This document shows, piece by piece, positions 7,246 through 19,003 of a DNA stretch of 48,178 nt. Source of the DNA: Arenicellales bacterium (GTDB taxonomy: Bacteria > Pseudomonadota > Gammaproteobacteria > BMS3Bbin11). The number at the start of each line of letters is the position of its first letter. The stretch's first letter is position 1. The stretch covers positions 1 to 48,178 of the forward strand of contig JARFQE010000109.1 of the NCBI GenBank assembly GCA_029287915.1, read 5' to 3'. A program made the position numbers and the translations under genes. Under the pieces are notes generated by a model that saw only the letters and a program-made list of their open reading frames with translations, was not told where the DNA came from and did no database searches.

Positions 7246-7780
7246 GTGTGCTCCTGTCAATGTTTATATATGTGATTATTACATTGATTATTACATCAAT
7301 TACTGTCATGTCGTTATACCTGAATATTGGTTTAACTGAACAATCTGCAGCCACGATTTAATAAGAATTGATATTATGCTCTATATGATTCTATAGTCAT
7401 CACGGTAAGCTGGAAAATAACAATGCGCAATAGACATAAATACCCGCCAGGACAGTTCTCTGTTTGACTACTACCATTTCTTGCGGGATGTGCGAAACTG
7501 CTGGATAGTAGTGATCAGGAAGCGTCTTGCGTGTTTAGCGATGGTAATAAATAATAGCGCACCAGCGGCGGCAGGTGCTGCAAGCCGCAAATAGATCAGC
7601 ACCCGGGCTATCAGGTGTTTTTCTGCTAGCGAATGGCATCAATGCCTTGCTCGCAAGGTGTTCCTGGCAAGGCTTGCCGACAATAGTATCGATGTCCATT
7701 GCAAAGCCGTCACATCAGAACTTAGTTCAGATGTACATATATCATTTAACATAATTAATAATTATCACAAGGATGACTCT
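7246..7780. other. Divergent intergenic region of about 530 bases
   Basis: This region separates the leftward DUF808 gene from the rightward transpeptidase gene, so it should hold promoters for both. Apart from the small frame at 7471-7602, I see no feature that I can support. An upstream extension of the transpeptidase frame to 7658 is not used, because the ribosome site lies at about 7770. Confidence 0.4.
7471..7602 (-). CDS. Possible small membrane peptide or gene remnant
   Basis: A 43-codon frame on the minus strand opening with GTG contains a plausible membrane segment (LAAPAAAGALLFITIAKHA) with a basic tail ending RTSRKKW. The frame stays open a little upstream to 7638, without a better start. 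No ribosome site is visible. It could be a true small protein, the end of a decayed gene, or chance. Confidence 0.2.
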   Translation of the reverse strand: MLIYLRLAAPAAAGALLFITIAKHARRFLITTIQQFRTSRKKW

Positions 7781-9484
7781 ATGCGAAATTGGCAACATAC
7801 AACAATCGTGACAGCGCTTGTGGGATTCGTATTTTTCAACATGTCCGCTGGTTTTGCGGTATCAAAACAGGAATATCAGAACGAGTTCATCGAAGTGCTG
7901 GAAGTGGGTCCAGCCTCGGATCTGAAGGTCAATGTTCACGGCAGAAGCGCGGCAGAAATCGATGGAAGTCTCTCTGATATCTATTATGAGAATATGCTAC
8001 AGCCTTTCTGGATCGAGGACGGTAAACCCAGCAATCGCGCCGCCGAAATTATTAGCGTATTGGAAGATGCGGAAAGTCACGGTCTCGATCCGGCCGATTA
8101 TTTTGTCGACAGAATTAACCAGTACATAAATGACAGGAGCACAGCTGAGCTGGTGCGTCTGGATGTTCTATTGTCTATGGGCATGATGCGTTATGTTGCT
8201 GATCAGCGCGAGGGACGCAAGCAACCGCGTGAGATAGATCCTAAGCTTTTTGATTCTGCCAGTGATGTCGAGGTGAACTGGACCGTACTAAGGCGTGCTG
8301 CTTTTGAAGCATCCGACATGAAGGCATTCCTGCAACAGCAGGCGCCGCCTTTTTTACAATATCGCGAGTTACAGAAAAAACTGTCTGAATATCGAGCCAT
8401 CGAGACGGCAGGTGGTTGGCCTACAATTGCTGCCGGAGACACGTTAAAGCCAGCAATGAAAGACCCACGCATAAAATCTGTACGACAACGGCTGGCTGTC
8501 ACAGGAGAACTGGCCGAGGGGAATATAGACAATATGCTGTTTGACGCAGAACTGGAGGAGGCCGTCAAACGGTTCCAGAAACGTCATAATTTAAACCCGG
8601 ATGGCGTCATCGGCAAGCAGACGCTGGCCACGATGAATGTGCCTGTAGAAACTAGAATTGAACAGATTATCATTAATATGGAAAGGTATCGCTGGTTGAA
8701 CAGGGACATAAAGGGACCCCGGGTAGCCGTCAATATCGCTGGTTTCAAGGCTCTGGCTGGTGAGCAGGGCAGGCTCGATCTTGCAATGCCTGTTATCGTA
8801 GGAAAACGACATCACGAAACACCGGTATTCAGCGACACGATCAAGCACGTTGTTTTCAATCCTTACTGGACACTGCCTCCTAGTATTGCCCGCAATGAAA
8901 CATTACCGAAACTGAAAAAAGACCCTGATTACCTGCAGAAACACAATATGAGAATTTTCCTCGGCTGGGGCGAGGGTTCAAAAGAGCTAGATCCTGCTAG
9001 TATTGACTGGAGCAAGATGACTAAAAGTGAGATGAATAAATACCGTATTCGCCAGGATCCCGGCCCAGGTAACGCTCTCGGAACCTTAAAGATAATTTTC
9101 CCGAACAAATACAATGTATATCTGCATGATACACCGACCCACGGCCTGTTTAAGCAAGAAAAGCGGGCGTTCAGCCACGGCTGTATCCGTATGGCTCGAC
9201 CGGTTGAAATGGCATCCTTTGTGTTAGGCGGAGAAGAAATGGGGTGGGGTGTTGATCGAATTAAAGAAATAATCAACGGCCGCCAACGCCAGGTAGCTGT
9301 ACTGGAAAAGCCACTGCCGGTGCACATTCTTTACCGAACAACCTATGTCGATGTCGAGAGCGGCACACTTCATTTTTATGAGGACATTTATGGTAGAGAC
9401 AAGATTCTGGCCAATGCGTTGTTCGGAAACCGCAGTGTTATTTCGGACAGATCAACAGCAATTCAGGGTAGCAAAGGTAGCTAG
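7781..9484 (+). CDS. ldtD: L,D-transpeptidase, LdtD/YcbB type
   Basis: A 567-residue exported enzyme predicted to make 3-3 crosslinks in peptidoglycan. The ATG at 7781 follows AAGGA and opens a signal peptide (residues 1-27, ending AGFAVS). Next comes the scaffold domain (YENMLQPFWIEDGKPSNRA), then a peptidoglycan-binding domain near residues 230-300 with AVKRFQKRHNLNPDGVIGKQT. The YkuD catalytic domain occupies the rest, with the motif HDTPTHGLF and then SHGCIRM, whose cysteine is residue 468. Size and domain order match the YcbB family. It is likely monocistronic. All catalytic motif residues expected for the family are present. Confidence 0.9.
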   Translation: MRNWQHTTIVTALVGFVFFNMSAGFAVSKQEYQNEFIEVLEVGPASDLKVNVHGRSAAEIDGSLSDIYYENMLQPFWIEDGKPSNRAAEIISVLEDAESHGLDPADYFVDRINQYINDRSTAELVRLDVLLSMGMMRYVADQREGRKQPREIDPKLFDSASDVEVNWTVLRRAAFEASDMKAFLQQQAPPFLQYRELQKKLSEYRAIETAGGWPTIAAGDTLKPAMKDPRIKSVRQRLAVTGELAEGNIDNMLFDAELEEAVKRFQKRHNLNPDGVIGKQTLATMNVPVETRIEQIIINMERYRWLNRDIKGPRVAVNIAGFKALAGEQGRLDLAMPVIVGKRHHETPVFSDTIKHVVFNPYWTLPPSIARNETLPKLKKDPDYLQKHNMRIFLGWGEGSKELDPASIDWSKMTKSEMNKYRIRQDPGPGNALGTLKIIFPNKYNVYLHDTPTHGLFKQEKRAFSHGCIRMARPVEMASFVLGGEEMGWGVDRIKEIINGRQRQVAVLEKPLPVHILYRTTYVDVESGTLHFYEDIYGRDKILANALFGNRSVISDRSTAIQGSKGS

Positions 9485-12199: not shown

Positions 12200-12388
12200 A
12201 TGTTGTGGTTAAGTGAAGTGTTGTTACAGCACCATGAACTGGCATCTTTTGATGACTTGGTCAGAGTGGTGCGGAACGGTGGTGGGAAGGGTGAAATGTT
12301 TTTCCGCATGGATGTCAAACCTCCTTTCAGTGATACCCCAGAAAACTGGGAAGAATTGCTGGAAGCATCATTTACTTCCAGAGGCTGA
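12200..12388 (+). CDS. Small unknown protein upstream of the Cas6-like gene
   Basis: A 62-residue protein that ends one base before the start of the Cas6-like gene, indicating a coupled pair. The sequence (LQHHELASFDDLVRVVRNGGGKGEMFFRMDV, in two parts: the helix to VRVV, then a basic glycine-rich turn) has no motif I recognise. The tail PPFSDTPENWEELLEASF is acidic and helical. The ribosome site is weak. Tight linkage and reasonable composition argue that it is real, but no function can be assigned. Confidence 0.5.
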   Translation: MLWLSEVLLQHHELASFDDLVRVVRNGGGKGEMFFRMDVKPPFSDTPENWEELLEASFTSRG

Positions 12389-12389
12389 T

Positions 12390-13070
12390 ATGTACTGGAC
12401 TGAAGATTCAGATAAAGACACCAAGCTCAAGGTTCCCGATAATATCGTCGACCTCAGCTTTAAACTCGACTGCAAGTGTTTACCGAATGACCATGCCTGG
12501 GAGTTGAGTCAGGCAGTACAGCAGATGTTACCCTGGATTGCTGATGAGCCACGGGCAGGCATCCATCAGATTCATGGTGCAGAATCAATGAATGGCTGGA
12601 TCAGGCCTGAGCAGCCGGATGCTCTAATACACCTGAGCAGGCGATCAAAAATGACGCTTCGTGTGCCTGGCGAACTTGTTGGTAAAGCGCTTGAATTAGA
12701 AGGAACAACATTAAATATCTCAGGTAACGTACTGAAAATTGGTAAGGCGATGGCTAAATTGTTAAGTTTGTACGAGGTCCAGTTTTCGCGTTATGTGATC
12801 GCTCGTGCAGATATGGATGAAGAGCAATTTCTGCAGCAGGCGGCCGATGAGCTAACAGAAATGAATATTCCTGCAAGGAAGTTGCTTAGCGGTAAAAGCC
12901 AGGCTTTTACAACTCCTGACGGTGACTTTACCACCAGAAGTCTTATGGTCGCTGACCTCGAGCCTATGGAAGCCATCAGGCTGCAGGAAACCGGCATAGG
13001 TGAGGGACGTTTGCTGGGCTGTGGTCTATTTGTTCCACACAAGGGTATCAAGCACGCTAAACAATCCTGA
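12390..13070 (+). CDS. Cas6-like RNA endonuclease, Cmx6 (type I-MYXAN) family, orphan
   Basis: A 226-residue protein. It has the layout I recall for Cmx6: VDLSFKLDCKCLPNDHAWELS at the start, EEPRAGIHQIHG-like PRAGIHQIHGAESMNGWIRP near residues 52-72, LIHLSRRSKMTLRVP, and the C-terminal Cas6 glycine-rich motif GIGEGRLLGCGLFVP. The Cas6 family cleaves CRISPR precursor RNA. The ATG at 12390 follows GAGG; the frame extends upstream to 12213 but overlaps the small gene there, and that extension does not look like the family. No cas genes and no repeat-spacer array are in this window, so its role here is unclear. It may process other RNAs or serve a distant array. Confidence 0.7.
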   Translation: MYWTEDSDKDTKLKVPDNIVDLSFKLDCKCLPNDHAWELSQAVQQMLPWIADEPRAGIHQIHGAESMNGWIRPEQPDALIHLSRRSKMTLRVPGELVGKALELEGTTLNISGNVLKIGKAMAKLLSLYEVQFSRYVIARADMDEEQFLQQAADELTEMNIPARKLLSGKSQAFTTPDGDFTTRSLMVADLEPMEAIRLQETGIGEGRLLGCGLFVPHKGIKHAKQS

Positions 13071-13296: not shown

Positions 13297-13500
13297 ATGA
13301 GCACTAAACAGGAAAAAATCCAGAAAATGCTGGAAATGCAAAAGAAATTCATCGAAAACGAACACGCCAATGGTTTCGATGCTAAAGCGTACTACACCCC
13401 TGATTCAGGTGACGTCCTGGACGGATATATTGATACCTACAATGATATTGCCGTGGATGTGATGAATGATGCTCACAAAGAACGTGGATCTAAGCGGTAA
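13297..13500 (+). CDS. Small conserved-looking unknown protein
   Basis: A 67-residue hydrophilic protein. The ATG at 13297 follows GGAGA at a suitable distance; an in-frame start at 13222 would add an unrelated leader. The first part (TKQEKIQKMLEMQKKFIENE) is a charged helix, and the second has acidic turns (YTPDSGDVLDGYIDTYND). A textbook terminator follows immediately. I recall similar short proteins in sulfur-oxidising gammaproteobacteria but cannot name a family or function. Confidence 0.7.
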   Translation: MSTKQEKIQKMLEMQKKFIENEHANGFDAKAYYTPDSGDVLDGYIDTYNDIAVDVMNDAHKERGSKR

Positions 13501-14624: not shown

Positions 14625-14902
14625 AACCAGCAGCTAAAAGCTGGAATATCTATATCGTGCGGTGTTGTGACAATAGTCTCTATACCGGAATCACAAATGA
14701 TATAGAAGCCCGGCTTTCACAGCACAATGAAGGCAAGGGTGCAAAATACACGCGTTCCAGATGCCCGGTCGAGCTTGTCTACACTGAGTGTGCCGGCAAT
14801 AAAAGTGATGCCCTTCGACGTGAAATCGAGATTAAAAGGATGAATGCTTCGCAAAAACGCAGGCTGGTTTCTAAAGCGGCATTAAACAGAAAGAGACTCT
14901 GA
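14621..14902 (+). CDS. GIY-YIG domain protein (UPF0213/YhbQ type), probable CTG start
   Basis: A single-domain GIY-YIG protein of about 93 residues. The motif is WNIYIVRCCDNSLYTGIT, with IEARLSQHNEGKGAKYT and ALRREIEIK following. The first ATG-like start in frame is GTG at 14657, but that would remove the WNIYIV strand, which is half of the catalytic motif. Upstream in frame there is only CTG at 14621, with GGGG about ten bases before it and overlapping the previous stop codon, so I propose CTG as the start. The family resembles structure-specific nucleases; its cellular role is not well known. Confidence 0.8.
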   Translation: MKPAAKSWNIYIVRCCDNSLYTGITNDIEARLSQHNEGKGAKYTRSRCPVELVYTECAGNKSDALRREIEIKRMNASQKRRLVSKAALNRKRL

Positions 14903-15544: not shown

Positions 15545-18500
15545 ATGGATTTTAAACGTTCCATAGGCCTGATACAGCCAAATGAGATCTATGACGAAAA
15601 AGAACGTCGTAACAAGCTACAGCTTTATATCAATCTGAAACTCGCATCATCCGGGCAACCTATTGTCGCAGGGGAAAACGAGGATTTTCTAAATACAGCG
15701 CAGGATTTATTAAAAAGTTATCGGGAAAAAAACCGCCTGATGACGGATTATTTGTGTCCCTCAGACCAGAGGATACAGTCATTTCTGGAACGTTATCTGT
15801 CTGATTTACCGGCACAGGAGATTCCGCGCCTACCCGCCATGACCTTTGTTCTTGACCGACATGGAGTGTCCAGGGAGTTATCAATTCCATTAGGTGAAGA
15901 TGAATTCCACTCTGACATTGTCAATAGTTATCGGGTGAAACAGGGGGTACTGCATAACCCTGCCAGCGATCGGCGCACAACAGAAGGTTCATTTCATATA
16001 GCAGAAGGTGGTTTGCCAATTCCAGGTGACAAGAAGGCTGTACCAATGGCAACCTTTGCGCAGCTTTTAAAACAGGCTTTATCACCGCCTGATGAATTGC
16101 TCAAGATACCTTTCACTGCAAACCTTGATAATTCAGCAAAAATGTTTGTCTCTTTGCTGTTGCGCCCGGTTGTCTGCCCTGAAGTACCGATGCAGGATGT
16201 TGAGAAAAACATGGAGATCCGTTTCTTCGCACCCGGCAACCTGGTCAGCAACCTGGATTTTGTAGAGTCTATCTTTGGCAATGGCGGGAATCCATTTCTT
16301 GCCGAGTTTGATGCCGGCCTTGATGTTACACACTGGACGGGCCATACCGGCTGCGTCATTCTCGCACCACACCTGACTCAATTTTCAAAGAAAGCGGTTG
16401 GTCTGCCACACTACAAAGATGCGACCTCACGGCAACGTGCAGAGGGTATGTGCTGGCAGCATGAGAACGAACTGTATAACAATGGTATGCCATTTAAGAT
16501 CACCGCACGTGATGAAAGCGGCGTTATCGTGACTGTACTTGCCGATAATTATTATGGTTACTGCAAAAAAGAGGTGAAAACGCAGATCAGTTTTTCTACC
16601 AATCTCTTTGGTATGGCTGAAGAAGAGCATGCCGGAGGAGCGCTGGCATTTCCGCGTCGCAATCATGGTATCGAATTTGGCGCAGACTCCAGTACACGTG
16701 AACCCGGCTACAGATTTGAAGATGTGGTTGAGCGCTATGGCGAGATCATGGATATTCAGCCCGAGGGTTATGCTATAGATAAAAAGTATCCCGAGGTCGT
16801 TTATGTGCCGCAGGATTTACGTATGGATCTCGAGGAGCAAACCATTCGATGGGATATTTTTGGCGAACCCAAAACTATACGGCTGCAGCCGGGTAAAACC
16901 TATATTCAACCCAATGGCTATAAGATTGAGATGCAGAAACACCCCAGTGCGCCATCCTGGCGGCTGATCGGCACTGATCCTGAAGGAACGCTGTGTCACA
17001 AACCCTGTACCGTTTCCGGTGGAGGAAAATCTGAAATCTCCAAATCTATCGACGATACAGTTATCTATGGTCCATTGTTTGTAGATGATCTGCAGACTGA
17101 TCTTGACCGTGTAGAAGAGATATATAGAAAAGACTATAGCGATCGTTTCAGACCAGGCTTTGAAGCTGAAGACAGGGATCCATCACGGAGATTAATCAGT
17201 TCGTCGAGAAGTCTTGGCTCTGTCATCAAATTACTCACACCATCACCCAGTTACACGGATGAATACAACGAATGGCTTGCTACAATCCCGCCAAGAATTC
17301 TCGCGCTGGTTTTTATAATTAAACGCTTTTACCGTGATTCCTGGGGTGATAAATGGCGTGATTACATCACCGTTGATGCAATTGATGGGGCAGCGGGTCA
17401 TGAAATAAAGATGTACGACCGGCGCATAATAGCCTCTTATCTCCGCATGGGTTTTGATGAGGCAGGGAAGTGGCGGATTTTTAAGGTCAGGCAGGATTTT
17501 ATTGCCGCAGAAAAAATACAGAAAGAAGATGATATAACAGCCTCAGTAGTCGTGCCACTCAGTTCTCTGCAAGGTTGTCTGCACAGCCTGACAGGAGAGA
17601 ACAGCGTCAAACTGGTGTCAAATTGCGAATATCGGCTGTTTCAGCGACCCGATGATGCAATTACTCCTGGTTTCGACACGCAGGCGGAATCAGATATAGC
17701 AAAAGCAGGAAACTTCCTGGCTAATTATGAACCGCTTCATGGTGAGCAACTGGTAAAAGTGGTCGAGGATGTCCTGACCTTTGATAACTATTCAGAGCCG
17801 ATGAAGAAACGCTTGCTTGATGCCTATGAGGAAGCGACAGGCTATGTTGTTTCATCAGCACACCCGAGGCTCGTGGATGGAAAGCCAAGCAAAAATCCAA
17901 GATATCTACAGACTCGTCAGGATCTTGTAGAACCAGTGCGCAGCTATGTCGCTGAAATGGGTTCGCGTTTTCACCGCAGATTGTCACTTCAGCAGCCTCT
18001 TTGTTATCCGGTTGATGCTGTATTGACGGGACGTCGCAACAACCCTCCTGAGCCAGGTATCCGGCCACTGGCAGTTTATAATCCCATCCATTATCAGGAA
18101 CTGCCTGAACTGTTCATGGATTTTATCTGTAGTCTGACAGGCAAGTCGCCATCGACTACAGGGGCGGGCAGTGAAGGTGCCCTGACAAAGGGGCCATTCA
18201 ATGCATTACGGCCCACCGTTGATCTTAACAATGCACTGGTTTCCTATATACTGACAGGTTATGCCGGCTACTCAAGCTCCGCCGGTCATATTGGTCCTGA
18301 TGTCAGGGTTGATCATGATGTTAGCCTGCTGATACCGGAAATCTGGTCTCGTTTGTCAGAGGATGAGCGTAAACCTGAAGTGATGATTGAAAAAGGCTAC
18401 CTGGAGCCACTAAAAGACTTTGATTACAAGGGCAGTACTGTGCTGGCAAGCCGGCTTGGCTACCGCATAACCAATCGTTTCGTGCATGGCTTGCTCGGTA

Positions 18501-19003
18501 AAATCTTTGATAACCCCAATGCTGTCTTTACTGAAGCTATACTGAAACCTGAAACTCAGAGCCTGGAGGTTTTTGTTGATGGCATAGACAATATTGTCGA
18601 GGCGCAACGTAATGTAGCGCAGCGATATATCGATGATAGTAGCATCGATGATGCCTGCCCACCATTGCGGGCCCTGTTACATATCATGGCTGAAGGTGAA
18701 TACCAGGGCATGAACATTCAGGATTCGGATATCCGCAGCATGTTTACCCGTGATTATCTGCTGCAATCAGACTGGTATCATAGAAGACTCAAGACCAAAC
18801 AGGAGCGAGAAATAGCGTTATGGCAACGCCACATCTCATACCTGGATGGATTTATCAACAGGCCGGGTTTTGCCGACGTAGTAGGAAATATGAATATAGC
18901 TGAAAGGCTGGAAACAGCACGTGAGCGTCTAAGCTATGTCCAAAGCAACGATTATCTGGTGGAACTACAGGGAACACTCGGTGCGGATCCCCTGGGTGTC
19001 TGA
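15545..19003 (+). CDS. Probable PPi-type phosphoenolpyruvate carboxykinase
   Basis: A 1152-residue soluble protein. Length and several blocks match my memory of pyrophosphate-dependent PEP carboxykinase of Entamoeba and propionibacteria: ADNYYGYCKKEVKTQIS from residue 333, EEEHAGGALAFP soon after, and TGAGSEGALTKGPFNAL from residue 872. A phosphate-loop-like SGGGKSE lies at 491-497 and is followed by FVDDLQTD at 512-519, the order expected for the P-loop and metal-binding aspartates of the PEPCK fold. The known enzyme interconverts oxaloacetate plus PPi with PEP, CO2 and phosphate. The ATG follows GGAG. No carbon-metabolism genes are adjacent; a structural comparison would settle it. Confidence 0.6.
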   Translation: MDFKRSIGLIQPNEIYDEKERRNKLQLYINLKLASSGQPIVAGENEDFLNTAQDLLKSYREKNRLMTDYLCPSDQRIQSFLERYLSDLPAQEIPRLPAMTFVLDRHGVSRELSIPLGEDEFHSDIVNSYRVKQGVLHNPASDRRTTEGSFHIAEGGLPIPGDKKAVPMATFAQLLKQALSPPDELLKIPFTANLDNSAKMFVSLLLRPVVCPEVPMQDVEKNMEIRFFAPGNLVSNLDFVESIFGNGGNPFLAEFDAGLDVTHWTGHTGCVILAPHLTQFSKKAVGLPHYKDATSRQRAEGMCWQHENELYNNGMPFKITARDESGVIVTVLADNYYGYCKKEVKTQISFSTNLFGMAEEEHAGGALAFPRRNHGIEFGADSSTREPGYRFEDVVERYGEIMDIQPEGYAIDKKYPEVVYVPQDLRMDLEEQTIRWDIFGEPKTIRLQPGKTYIQPNGYKIEMQKHPSAPSWRLIGTDPEGTLCHKPCTVSGGGKSEISKSIDDTVIYGPLFVDDLQTDLDRVEEIYRKDYSDRFRPGFEAEDRDPSRRLISSSRSLGSVIKLLTPSPSYTDEYNEWLATIPPRILALVFIIKRFYRDSWGDKWRDYITVDAIDGAAGHEIKMYDRRIIASYLRMGFDEAGKWRIFKVRQDFIAAEKIQKEDDITASVVVPLSSLQGCLHSLTGENSVKLVSNCEYRLFQRPDDAITPGFDTQAESDIAKAGNFLANYEPLHGEQLVKVVEDVLTFDNYSEPMKKRLLDAYEEATGYVVSSAHPRLVDGKPSKNPRYLQTRQDLVEPVRSYVAEMGSRFHRRLSLQQPLCYPVDAVLTGRRNNPPEPGIRPLAVYNPIHYQELPELFMDFICSLTGKSPSTTGAGSEGALTKGPFNALRPTVDLNNALVSYILTGYAGYSSSAGHIGPDVRVDHDVSLLIPEIWSRLSEDERKPEVMIEKGYLEPLKDFDYKGSTVLASRLGYRITNRFVHGLLGKIFDNPNAVFTEAILKPETQSLEVFVDGIDNIVEAQRNVAQRYIDDSSIDDACPPLRALLHIMAEGEYQGMNIQDSDIRSMFTRDYLLQSDWYHRRLKTKQEREIALWQRHISYLDGFINRPGFADVVGNMNIAERLETARERLSYVQSNDYLVELQGTLGADPLGV

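Follow-up and report, generated by a model that had tools for sequence, protein, structure and literature searches.

A solo Cas6 protein and its small partner gene accompany the oxidative Dsr operon in one class of Proteobacteria

A cas6 gene standing outside CRISPR is associated with the dsr genes in one proteobacterial class, and this association is solid. The protein that it encodes (solo Cas6) almost certainly does not process crRNA. On balance, we regard it as a single-copy, CRISPR-independent Cas6 that belongs to an accessory operon of the oxidative Dsr system and acts on RNA. The example followed here lies in a stretch of 48,178 nucleotides from an Arenicellales bacterium (the window). 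In public genomes the gene is labelled 'type I-MYXAN CRISPR-associated protein Cas6/Cmx6' and can therefore pass for an orphan CRISPR remnant. No published link between Cas6 and dsr was found in the literature searched; the family is known, and its dsr setting is apparently undescribed.

Cas6 and dsrA occur together in one class

A survey of 369 genomes of the class, with dsrA called at E ≤ 1e-60 (112 over the profile cut-off), gave 118 genomes with the Cas6 family PF09559 and 117 with dsrA. Both were present in 110, Cas6 only in eight, dsrA only in seven and neither in 244 (Fisher p 1.5e-74, uncorrected for kinship). In seven of the eight Cas6-only genomes (G192 aside) no more than 2.7 kb of contig is left on the side expected to carry dsr, and one Cas6-only genome, G224, has a partial dsrA on that side. 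Similarly, six of the seven dsrA-only genomes have at most 1.9 kb of contig beyond dsrA in the direction of Cas6, so these seven are not a valid negative control; in the seventh (G216) over 14 kb of sequence lies upstream of dsrA, with no Cas6. The two genes share a contig in 81 of the 110 double carriers and are on different contigs in 29. All 79 closely linked pairs are divergent and 0.66 to 4.5 kb apart, while two further same-contig pairs (G115 and G329) are far apart.

Closer to the window, 56 relatives (its own genome included) were searched for dsrA with TIGR02064, counting matches above the cut-off and one cut short by the end of its contig (G040). Cas6 was carried by all 20 dsrA-positive genomes, and was present without dsrA in two, one of them 60% and the other 91% complete. 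Each of the 22 Cas6-positive genomes has one PF09559 match, and the Cas6 proteins of the other 21 are 39 to 77% identical to that of the window. In the window's own genome (G000; 2.78 Mb, 139 contigs, 95.7% complete), Cas6 lies on contig C13 and dsrA on C74 (G000:C74:39-1022; 525.3 bits, cut-off 392.85), and divergent adjacency to dsrA is not found. In this genus X62, the small gene that precedes cas6, and Cas6 stay together, with dsrA on another contig (G000, G001 and G003) or undetected (G005). X62-Cas6 stands beside dsrAB in L030, from another genus of the same family. As the unit lies apart from the dsr operon in this genus, the link with sulfur is invisible from the window.

The cas6 gene and its partner X62

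The first-pass annotation of the window proposed that a 226-residue open reading frame encodes Cas6 and ends in a Gly-rich motif of that family. Family identity proved far above chance, with 199.6 bits against PF09559 (cut-off 26.7), 119.7 bits against TIGR02807 (cas6_cmx6; cut-off 98.85) and a PADLOC match to Cas6 at E 3.6e-58, and the C-terminal Gly-rich stretch (GIGEGRLLGCGLF) falls inside the family matches. All 22 members of set A1 match TIGR02807 at E ≤ 0.001. The window protein also matches PDB chain 8fcj_B, Cas6 of a type I-B CRISPR transposon (E 7.7e-10), and a 22-sequence profile matches type I-B transposon Cas6 in the PDB at E 1.2e-23. By genome profile search PF09559 is single copy in G000. 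The predicted structure of Cas6 is poor (pLDDT 46.5) and that of X62 is three helices (pLDDT 65.8); from these models only the family match of Cas6 is relied on, the top-ranked Foldseek matches being Cas6 chains (E 2e-6). Features of the unit are given in Table 1.

Table 1. Positions of the Cas6 unit and its candidate functional residues in the window
Feature	Position	Strand	Remarks
X62, 62-aa partner gene, no known family	12200..12388	+	One base before cas6: stop codon ends at 12388, cas6 ATG at 12390, both genes on the + strand
Solo Cas6 (PF09559 / TIGR02807), 226 aa	12390..13070	+	Library matches, single copy
Codon of His35, candidate catalytic residue	12492..12494	+	His in 98/99 solo and 7/7 cyanobacterial I-MYXAN-type Cas6 sequences in the alignment
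Codon of His59	12564..12566	+	His in 94/99 solo and 0/7 cyanobacterial I-MYXAN-type Cas6 sequences; His also in CAST I-B Cas6
Cas6 Gly-rich loop, residues 202-212	12993..13025	+	
X67, 67-aa gene, family unknown, 3' of the unit in many relatives	13297..13500	+	Near Cas6 in 53/99 mapped loci

Two kinds of CRISPR Cas6 are close to the solo family. The type I-MYXAN Cas6/Cmx6 proteins of cyanobacterial plasmids (L159-L164) belong to the same family over their whole length and share His35, Arg91, Arg134 and the Gly loop. However, all six are basic and encoded beside cas3, whereas solo Cas6 is acidic and sits with dsr; mean identity of the solo family to cyanobacterial I-MYXAN Cas6 is 25%, and the solo proteins add an NGWxRP insertion, His59 and Arg85. 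Cas6 of the type I-B CRISPR-associated transposon (PDB 8fcj and 8fcu) is the nearest solved structure by both profile and fold. It has a His aligned to His59 and Asn in place of His35 and, unlike solo Cas6, is part of a Cascade-transposon complex. A phage or plasmid origin was rejected: kin of the window Cas6 gave no phage match, no confirmed occurrence in viral contigs and no PHROG, and the plasmid-borne members are cyanobacterial Cas6 only.

The Gloeobacter morelensis plasmid pGMOR1 (L165, 2977-5549) carries an I-MYXAN-annotated Cas6 with a PAPS-reductase-family gene, a cupin gene and hypotheticals, and no other cas gene is present among the ten annotated features of this stretch. It is possibly another non-CRISPR Cas6.

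The cas6 gene had been noted as coupled to a 62-residue gene that stops a single base short of it, and this gap was borne out. X62 has no match in Pfam, NCBIfam, PADLOC or PHROG, and its homologues give only weak, inconsistent library matches. It is nevertheless a real gene, since it is conserved in 106 of the 369 genomes of the class and has a dN/dS of 0.05 to 0.11 against four of five genus relatives (the comparison with L025 was out of register and is excluded). Cas6 is present in 105 of these 106 genomes; the other (G129) has dsrA, and its contig ends just past X62. In 97 genomes X62 precedes Cas6 in the same orientation and within 1.3 kb. It is absent from the 244 genomes that lack both Cas6 and dsrA. 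No X62 match was obtained in 13 of the 118 Cas6-positive genomes. X62 is thus a closely coupled partner of Cas6.

Elsewhere in the window, an 81-residue GIY-YIG domain protein (14657-14902) near the Cas6 unit and an L,D-transpeptidase (7658-9484; YkuD with scaffold and peptidoglycan-binding domains) are ordinary. A 1152-residue open reading frame (15545-19003) has no Pfam match at E ≤ 0.001; PPi-type PEP carboxykinases can presumably look alike.

Neighbours of Cas6 along the genome

To find recurring neighbours, regions of at most 20 kb surrounding Cas6 were clustered. These were DsrA/B, E, F, H, C, M, K and L, a TauD-family dioxygenase, a DsrC-family protein and small unknowns including X62 (DsrB, DsrE, TauD and the DsrC family were assigned by profile, DsrA by genome search, and F, H, M, K and L by eye and position). 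The usual arrangement has the dsr operon running in one direction and, divergent from it, TauD, X62, in some cases a 230-residue gene (X230), Cas6 and a DsrC-like gene. The genomic partner is thus the reverse-Dsr operon, dsrABEFHCMKL; the available passages of its descriptions name no Cas6, X62 or TauD as a member.

The 99 Cas6 loci that were mapped (22 from the set of relatives, 68 picked as linked and nine others) are biased to linked loci; near Cas6 they contain X62 in 84, DsrA in 81, the DsrC-like gene in 78, TauD in 72 and X230 in 37. The commonest orders were TauD-X62-X230-Cas6-DsrC-like (21 loci) and TauD-X62-Cas6-DsrC-like-X67 (16 loci). Neither the DsrC-like gene nor TauD is beside Cas6 in the window. 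Across 54 loci the distance correlations were r 0.75 for Cas6 and TauD, 0.60 for Cas6 and X62, and 0.37 for Cas6 and DsrA.

The DsrC-like protein encoded 3' of Cas6 has a GGY end, or RKGGY within, in 74 of 75 loci. There is no cysteine among its last 15 residues in 71 of the 75, so this neighbour mostly lacks a penultimate cysteine; proteins of this sort go by the name RspA. In DsrC the penultimate cysteine binds sulfur, according to the available text of PMC3397948. According to the corresponding text of PMC5024460, each of its two species has a DsrC homologue that is not part of the cluster and is five locus tags away from dsrA (SVA_1949 and SCL_1279). This is the position expected for the unit's DsrC-like gene.

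Oxidative Dsr operons of other classes

Across the phylum, dsrA was present in 50 of 249 sampled genomes, and 47 of these 50 are from other classes. PF09559 was present in none of these 47 and in all three of the same class, showing that Cas6 is not intrinsically required for Dsr. Among 20 dsr stretches from other classes, four have the canonical dsrABEFHCMKL order with a divergent TauD. In L206-L209 (G546, G460, G598 and G586) TauD-X62 is divergent from dsrA, without Cas6, and in at least L208 it is followed by a DUF6967 gene and then by an open reading frame beginning like sirohaem synthase (a reading made by eye, the profile match being to a NAD-binding domain). TauD-X62 therefore appears to be a wider core, to which Cas6 is a class-specific addition, and is perhaps an accessory pair of oxidative Dsr tied to the sirohaem cofactor.

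RNA and non-RNA roles for solo Cas6

Alignment was one of the checks proposed in the first-pass annotation, and it showed the candidate catalytic histidines to be retained across the solo family, at least one of His35 and His59 being present in all 99 sequences. From its conservation in CRISPR Cas6, His35 would be the catalytic residue. Arg85 and Arg91 are invariant (99/99) and the Gly loop is retained in 95 to 98 of the 99, while solo sequences typically have the NGWxRP insertion and end in PHK. A same-genus relative, G001 (L028), has Asn for His35, the sole such change among the 99, and retains His59.

The charge of the protein is very different. Net charge has a median of -5 in solo Cas6 (n = 99) and is -6 in the window protein, against +6 to +10 in seven cyanobacterial I-MYXAN Cas6 proteins; median pI is 5.9 (n = 99) against 9.3 to 9.6 in the same seven, and exceeds 8 in only six of the 99. 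Such an acidic charge is unusual for an RNA-binding Cas6 and counts against an RNA step.

Searches for a substrate covered the window and the dsr operon. No Rfam element was found in the window. In the dsr operons of L030-L146, hairpins (z < -2) occurred in 67% of 78 dsrA-dsrB gaps and 75% of 72 dsrC-dsrM gaps, compared with no more than 14% in other gaps of the operon. Their sequences vary by genome, with no common motif by eye, and three of four rDsr operons of other classes, which have no Cas6, also show a strong dsrA-dsrB hairpin (z < -3.8). As the latter is not specific to Cas6 carriers, the dsr hairpins are unsupported as a Cas6 substrate. A hairpin just 5' of X62 (stem TCATGC, loop TTTATCA) is absent in five relatives of the genus and one of another genus, and is attributed to chance.

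An RNA role is thus favoured by the retained histidines and Gly loop, and opposed by the acidic surface and the failure to find a substrate. Adoption of the orphan gene for other RNA processing had been suggested from the window alone; the new function is strongly supported, while the RNA processing is weakened by the inverted charge and the missing substrate. Judging from the residues retained, solo Cas6 is likely still to cut RNA. It would keep its active site and serve as a substrate-specific endoribonuclease or RNA-binding regulator, its targets being a few constant RNAs of the sulfur-oxidation programme, and X62 would act as its closely coupled partner. More tentatively, the domesticated Cas6, X62, TauD and the Cys-less DsrC-like protein may together form a control or maturation module of oxidative Dsr that cuts or binds a specific RNA. 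A precedent for non-CRISPR targets is Cas6-3 of Sulfolobus solfataricus, which, in the available text of PMC4041471, cuts the non-CRISPR ncRNA60 besides its repeat. That enzyme still acts on arrays in a CRISPR organism, whereas the solo family shows no CRISPR dependence.

The Cas6 fold could instead have been exapted without RNA activity, binding a protein or an anionic cofactor of Dsr, with the old active site serving that binding. DsrAB maturation, sirohaem maturation or action with the DsrC-like protein are examples of such a role. This is possible, though less likely. The charge inverted to an acidic pI speaks for it, as do neighbours that are protein or metabolic genes (TauD, DsrC-like), distances of Cas6 that track TauD best, the sirohaem synthase-like start of the last open reading frame in the equivalent unit of at least one other-class locus (L208), and the lack of an RNA substrate among the dsr hairpins and in the Rfam search of the window. 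Against it, His35, the Gly loop and the Arg residues are kept in 94 to 100% of sequences, which is not obviously required without RNA.

It is quite unlikely that solo Cas6 is a CRISPR-derived hitch-hiker, kept by descent and by linkage to dsr with no role in sulfur oxidation. The restriction of Cas6-dsr to one class would fit, and linkage could preserve co-occurrence in counts that are uncorrected for kinship. However, Cas6 is retained in genomes of 1.0 to 1.1 Mb without Cas1 (G046, G148 and G292), it stays with X62 after parting from dsr in this genus, and both its invariant residues and a pN of 0.13 to 0.18 against a pS of 0.76 to 0.84 in cas6 speak against it.

Independence from CRISPR

The reported absence of a CRISPR array and of other cas genes from the window was upheld. 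At least 60 repeat families are present, of which the largest 20 consist of two or three diverged, widely spaced copies and are not array-like, and no other cas gene is near Cas6. In the rest of G000, profile searches gave no match to Cas1, no PF10040 Cas6 and no cas3_core over the cut-off (best 37.8 bits, cut-off 102.45). The suggestion that Cas6 serves a distant array therefore finds no support, the more so as Cas6 in the relatives adjoins dsr and not cas genes. Conservation of the Cas6-X62 pair in CRISPR-negative relatives, as a new function would predict, was by contrast confirmed.

The same pattern holds in the class. Of 79 nearly complete Cas6-positive genomes (≥ 97% complete, plus G000 at 95.7%), 42 have neither Cas1 nor cas3 over the cut-off, and both are lacking in eight of 12 single-contig Cas6-positive genomes, including G088, an isolate that carries the unit. 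Cas1 is no commoner in Cas6-positive relatives (5/22) than in Cas6-negative ones (8/34), indicating no association of Cas6 with CRISPR. The complete genome of Sulfuricaulis limicola HA5 is listed with 0 CRISPR repeats in the available text of PMC5024460. That solo Cas6 is a displaced component working for an array at some other place in the genome, of type I-MYXAN or another type, is consequently rejected as extremely improbable: its family name and match, and Cas1 somewhere in 37 of the 79 genomes, would agree with it, but its own genome and more than half of the 79 have no Cas1 and no cas3 over the cut-off, Cas1 is not enriched in carriers, and in the seven compared cases where Cas1 and Cas6 share a contig there is no Cas1 within 20 kb of Cas6 (nearest 22 kb, G244).

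Conclusions

Solo Cas6 accompanies oxidative Dsr almost universally in one class, as a single copy and with the same small partner gene. For the study of sulfur oxidation, this reveals a conserved unit beside dsrA for which no function was described in the literature found. For the CRISPR field, it offers a large family of Cas6 proteins whose evolution has not involved crRNA. If the favoured reading is true, a Cas nuclease would have become part of lithotrophic energy metabolism.
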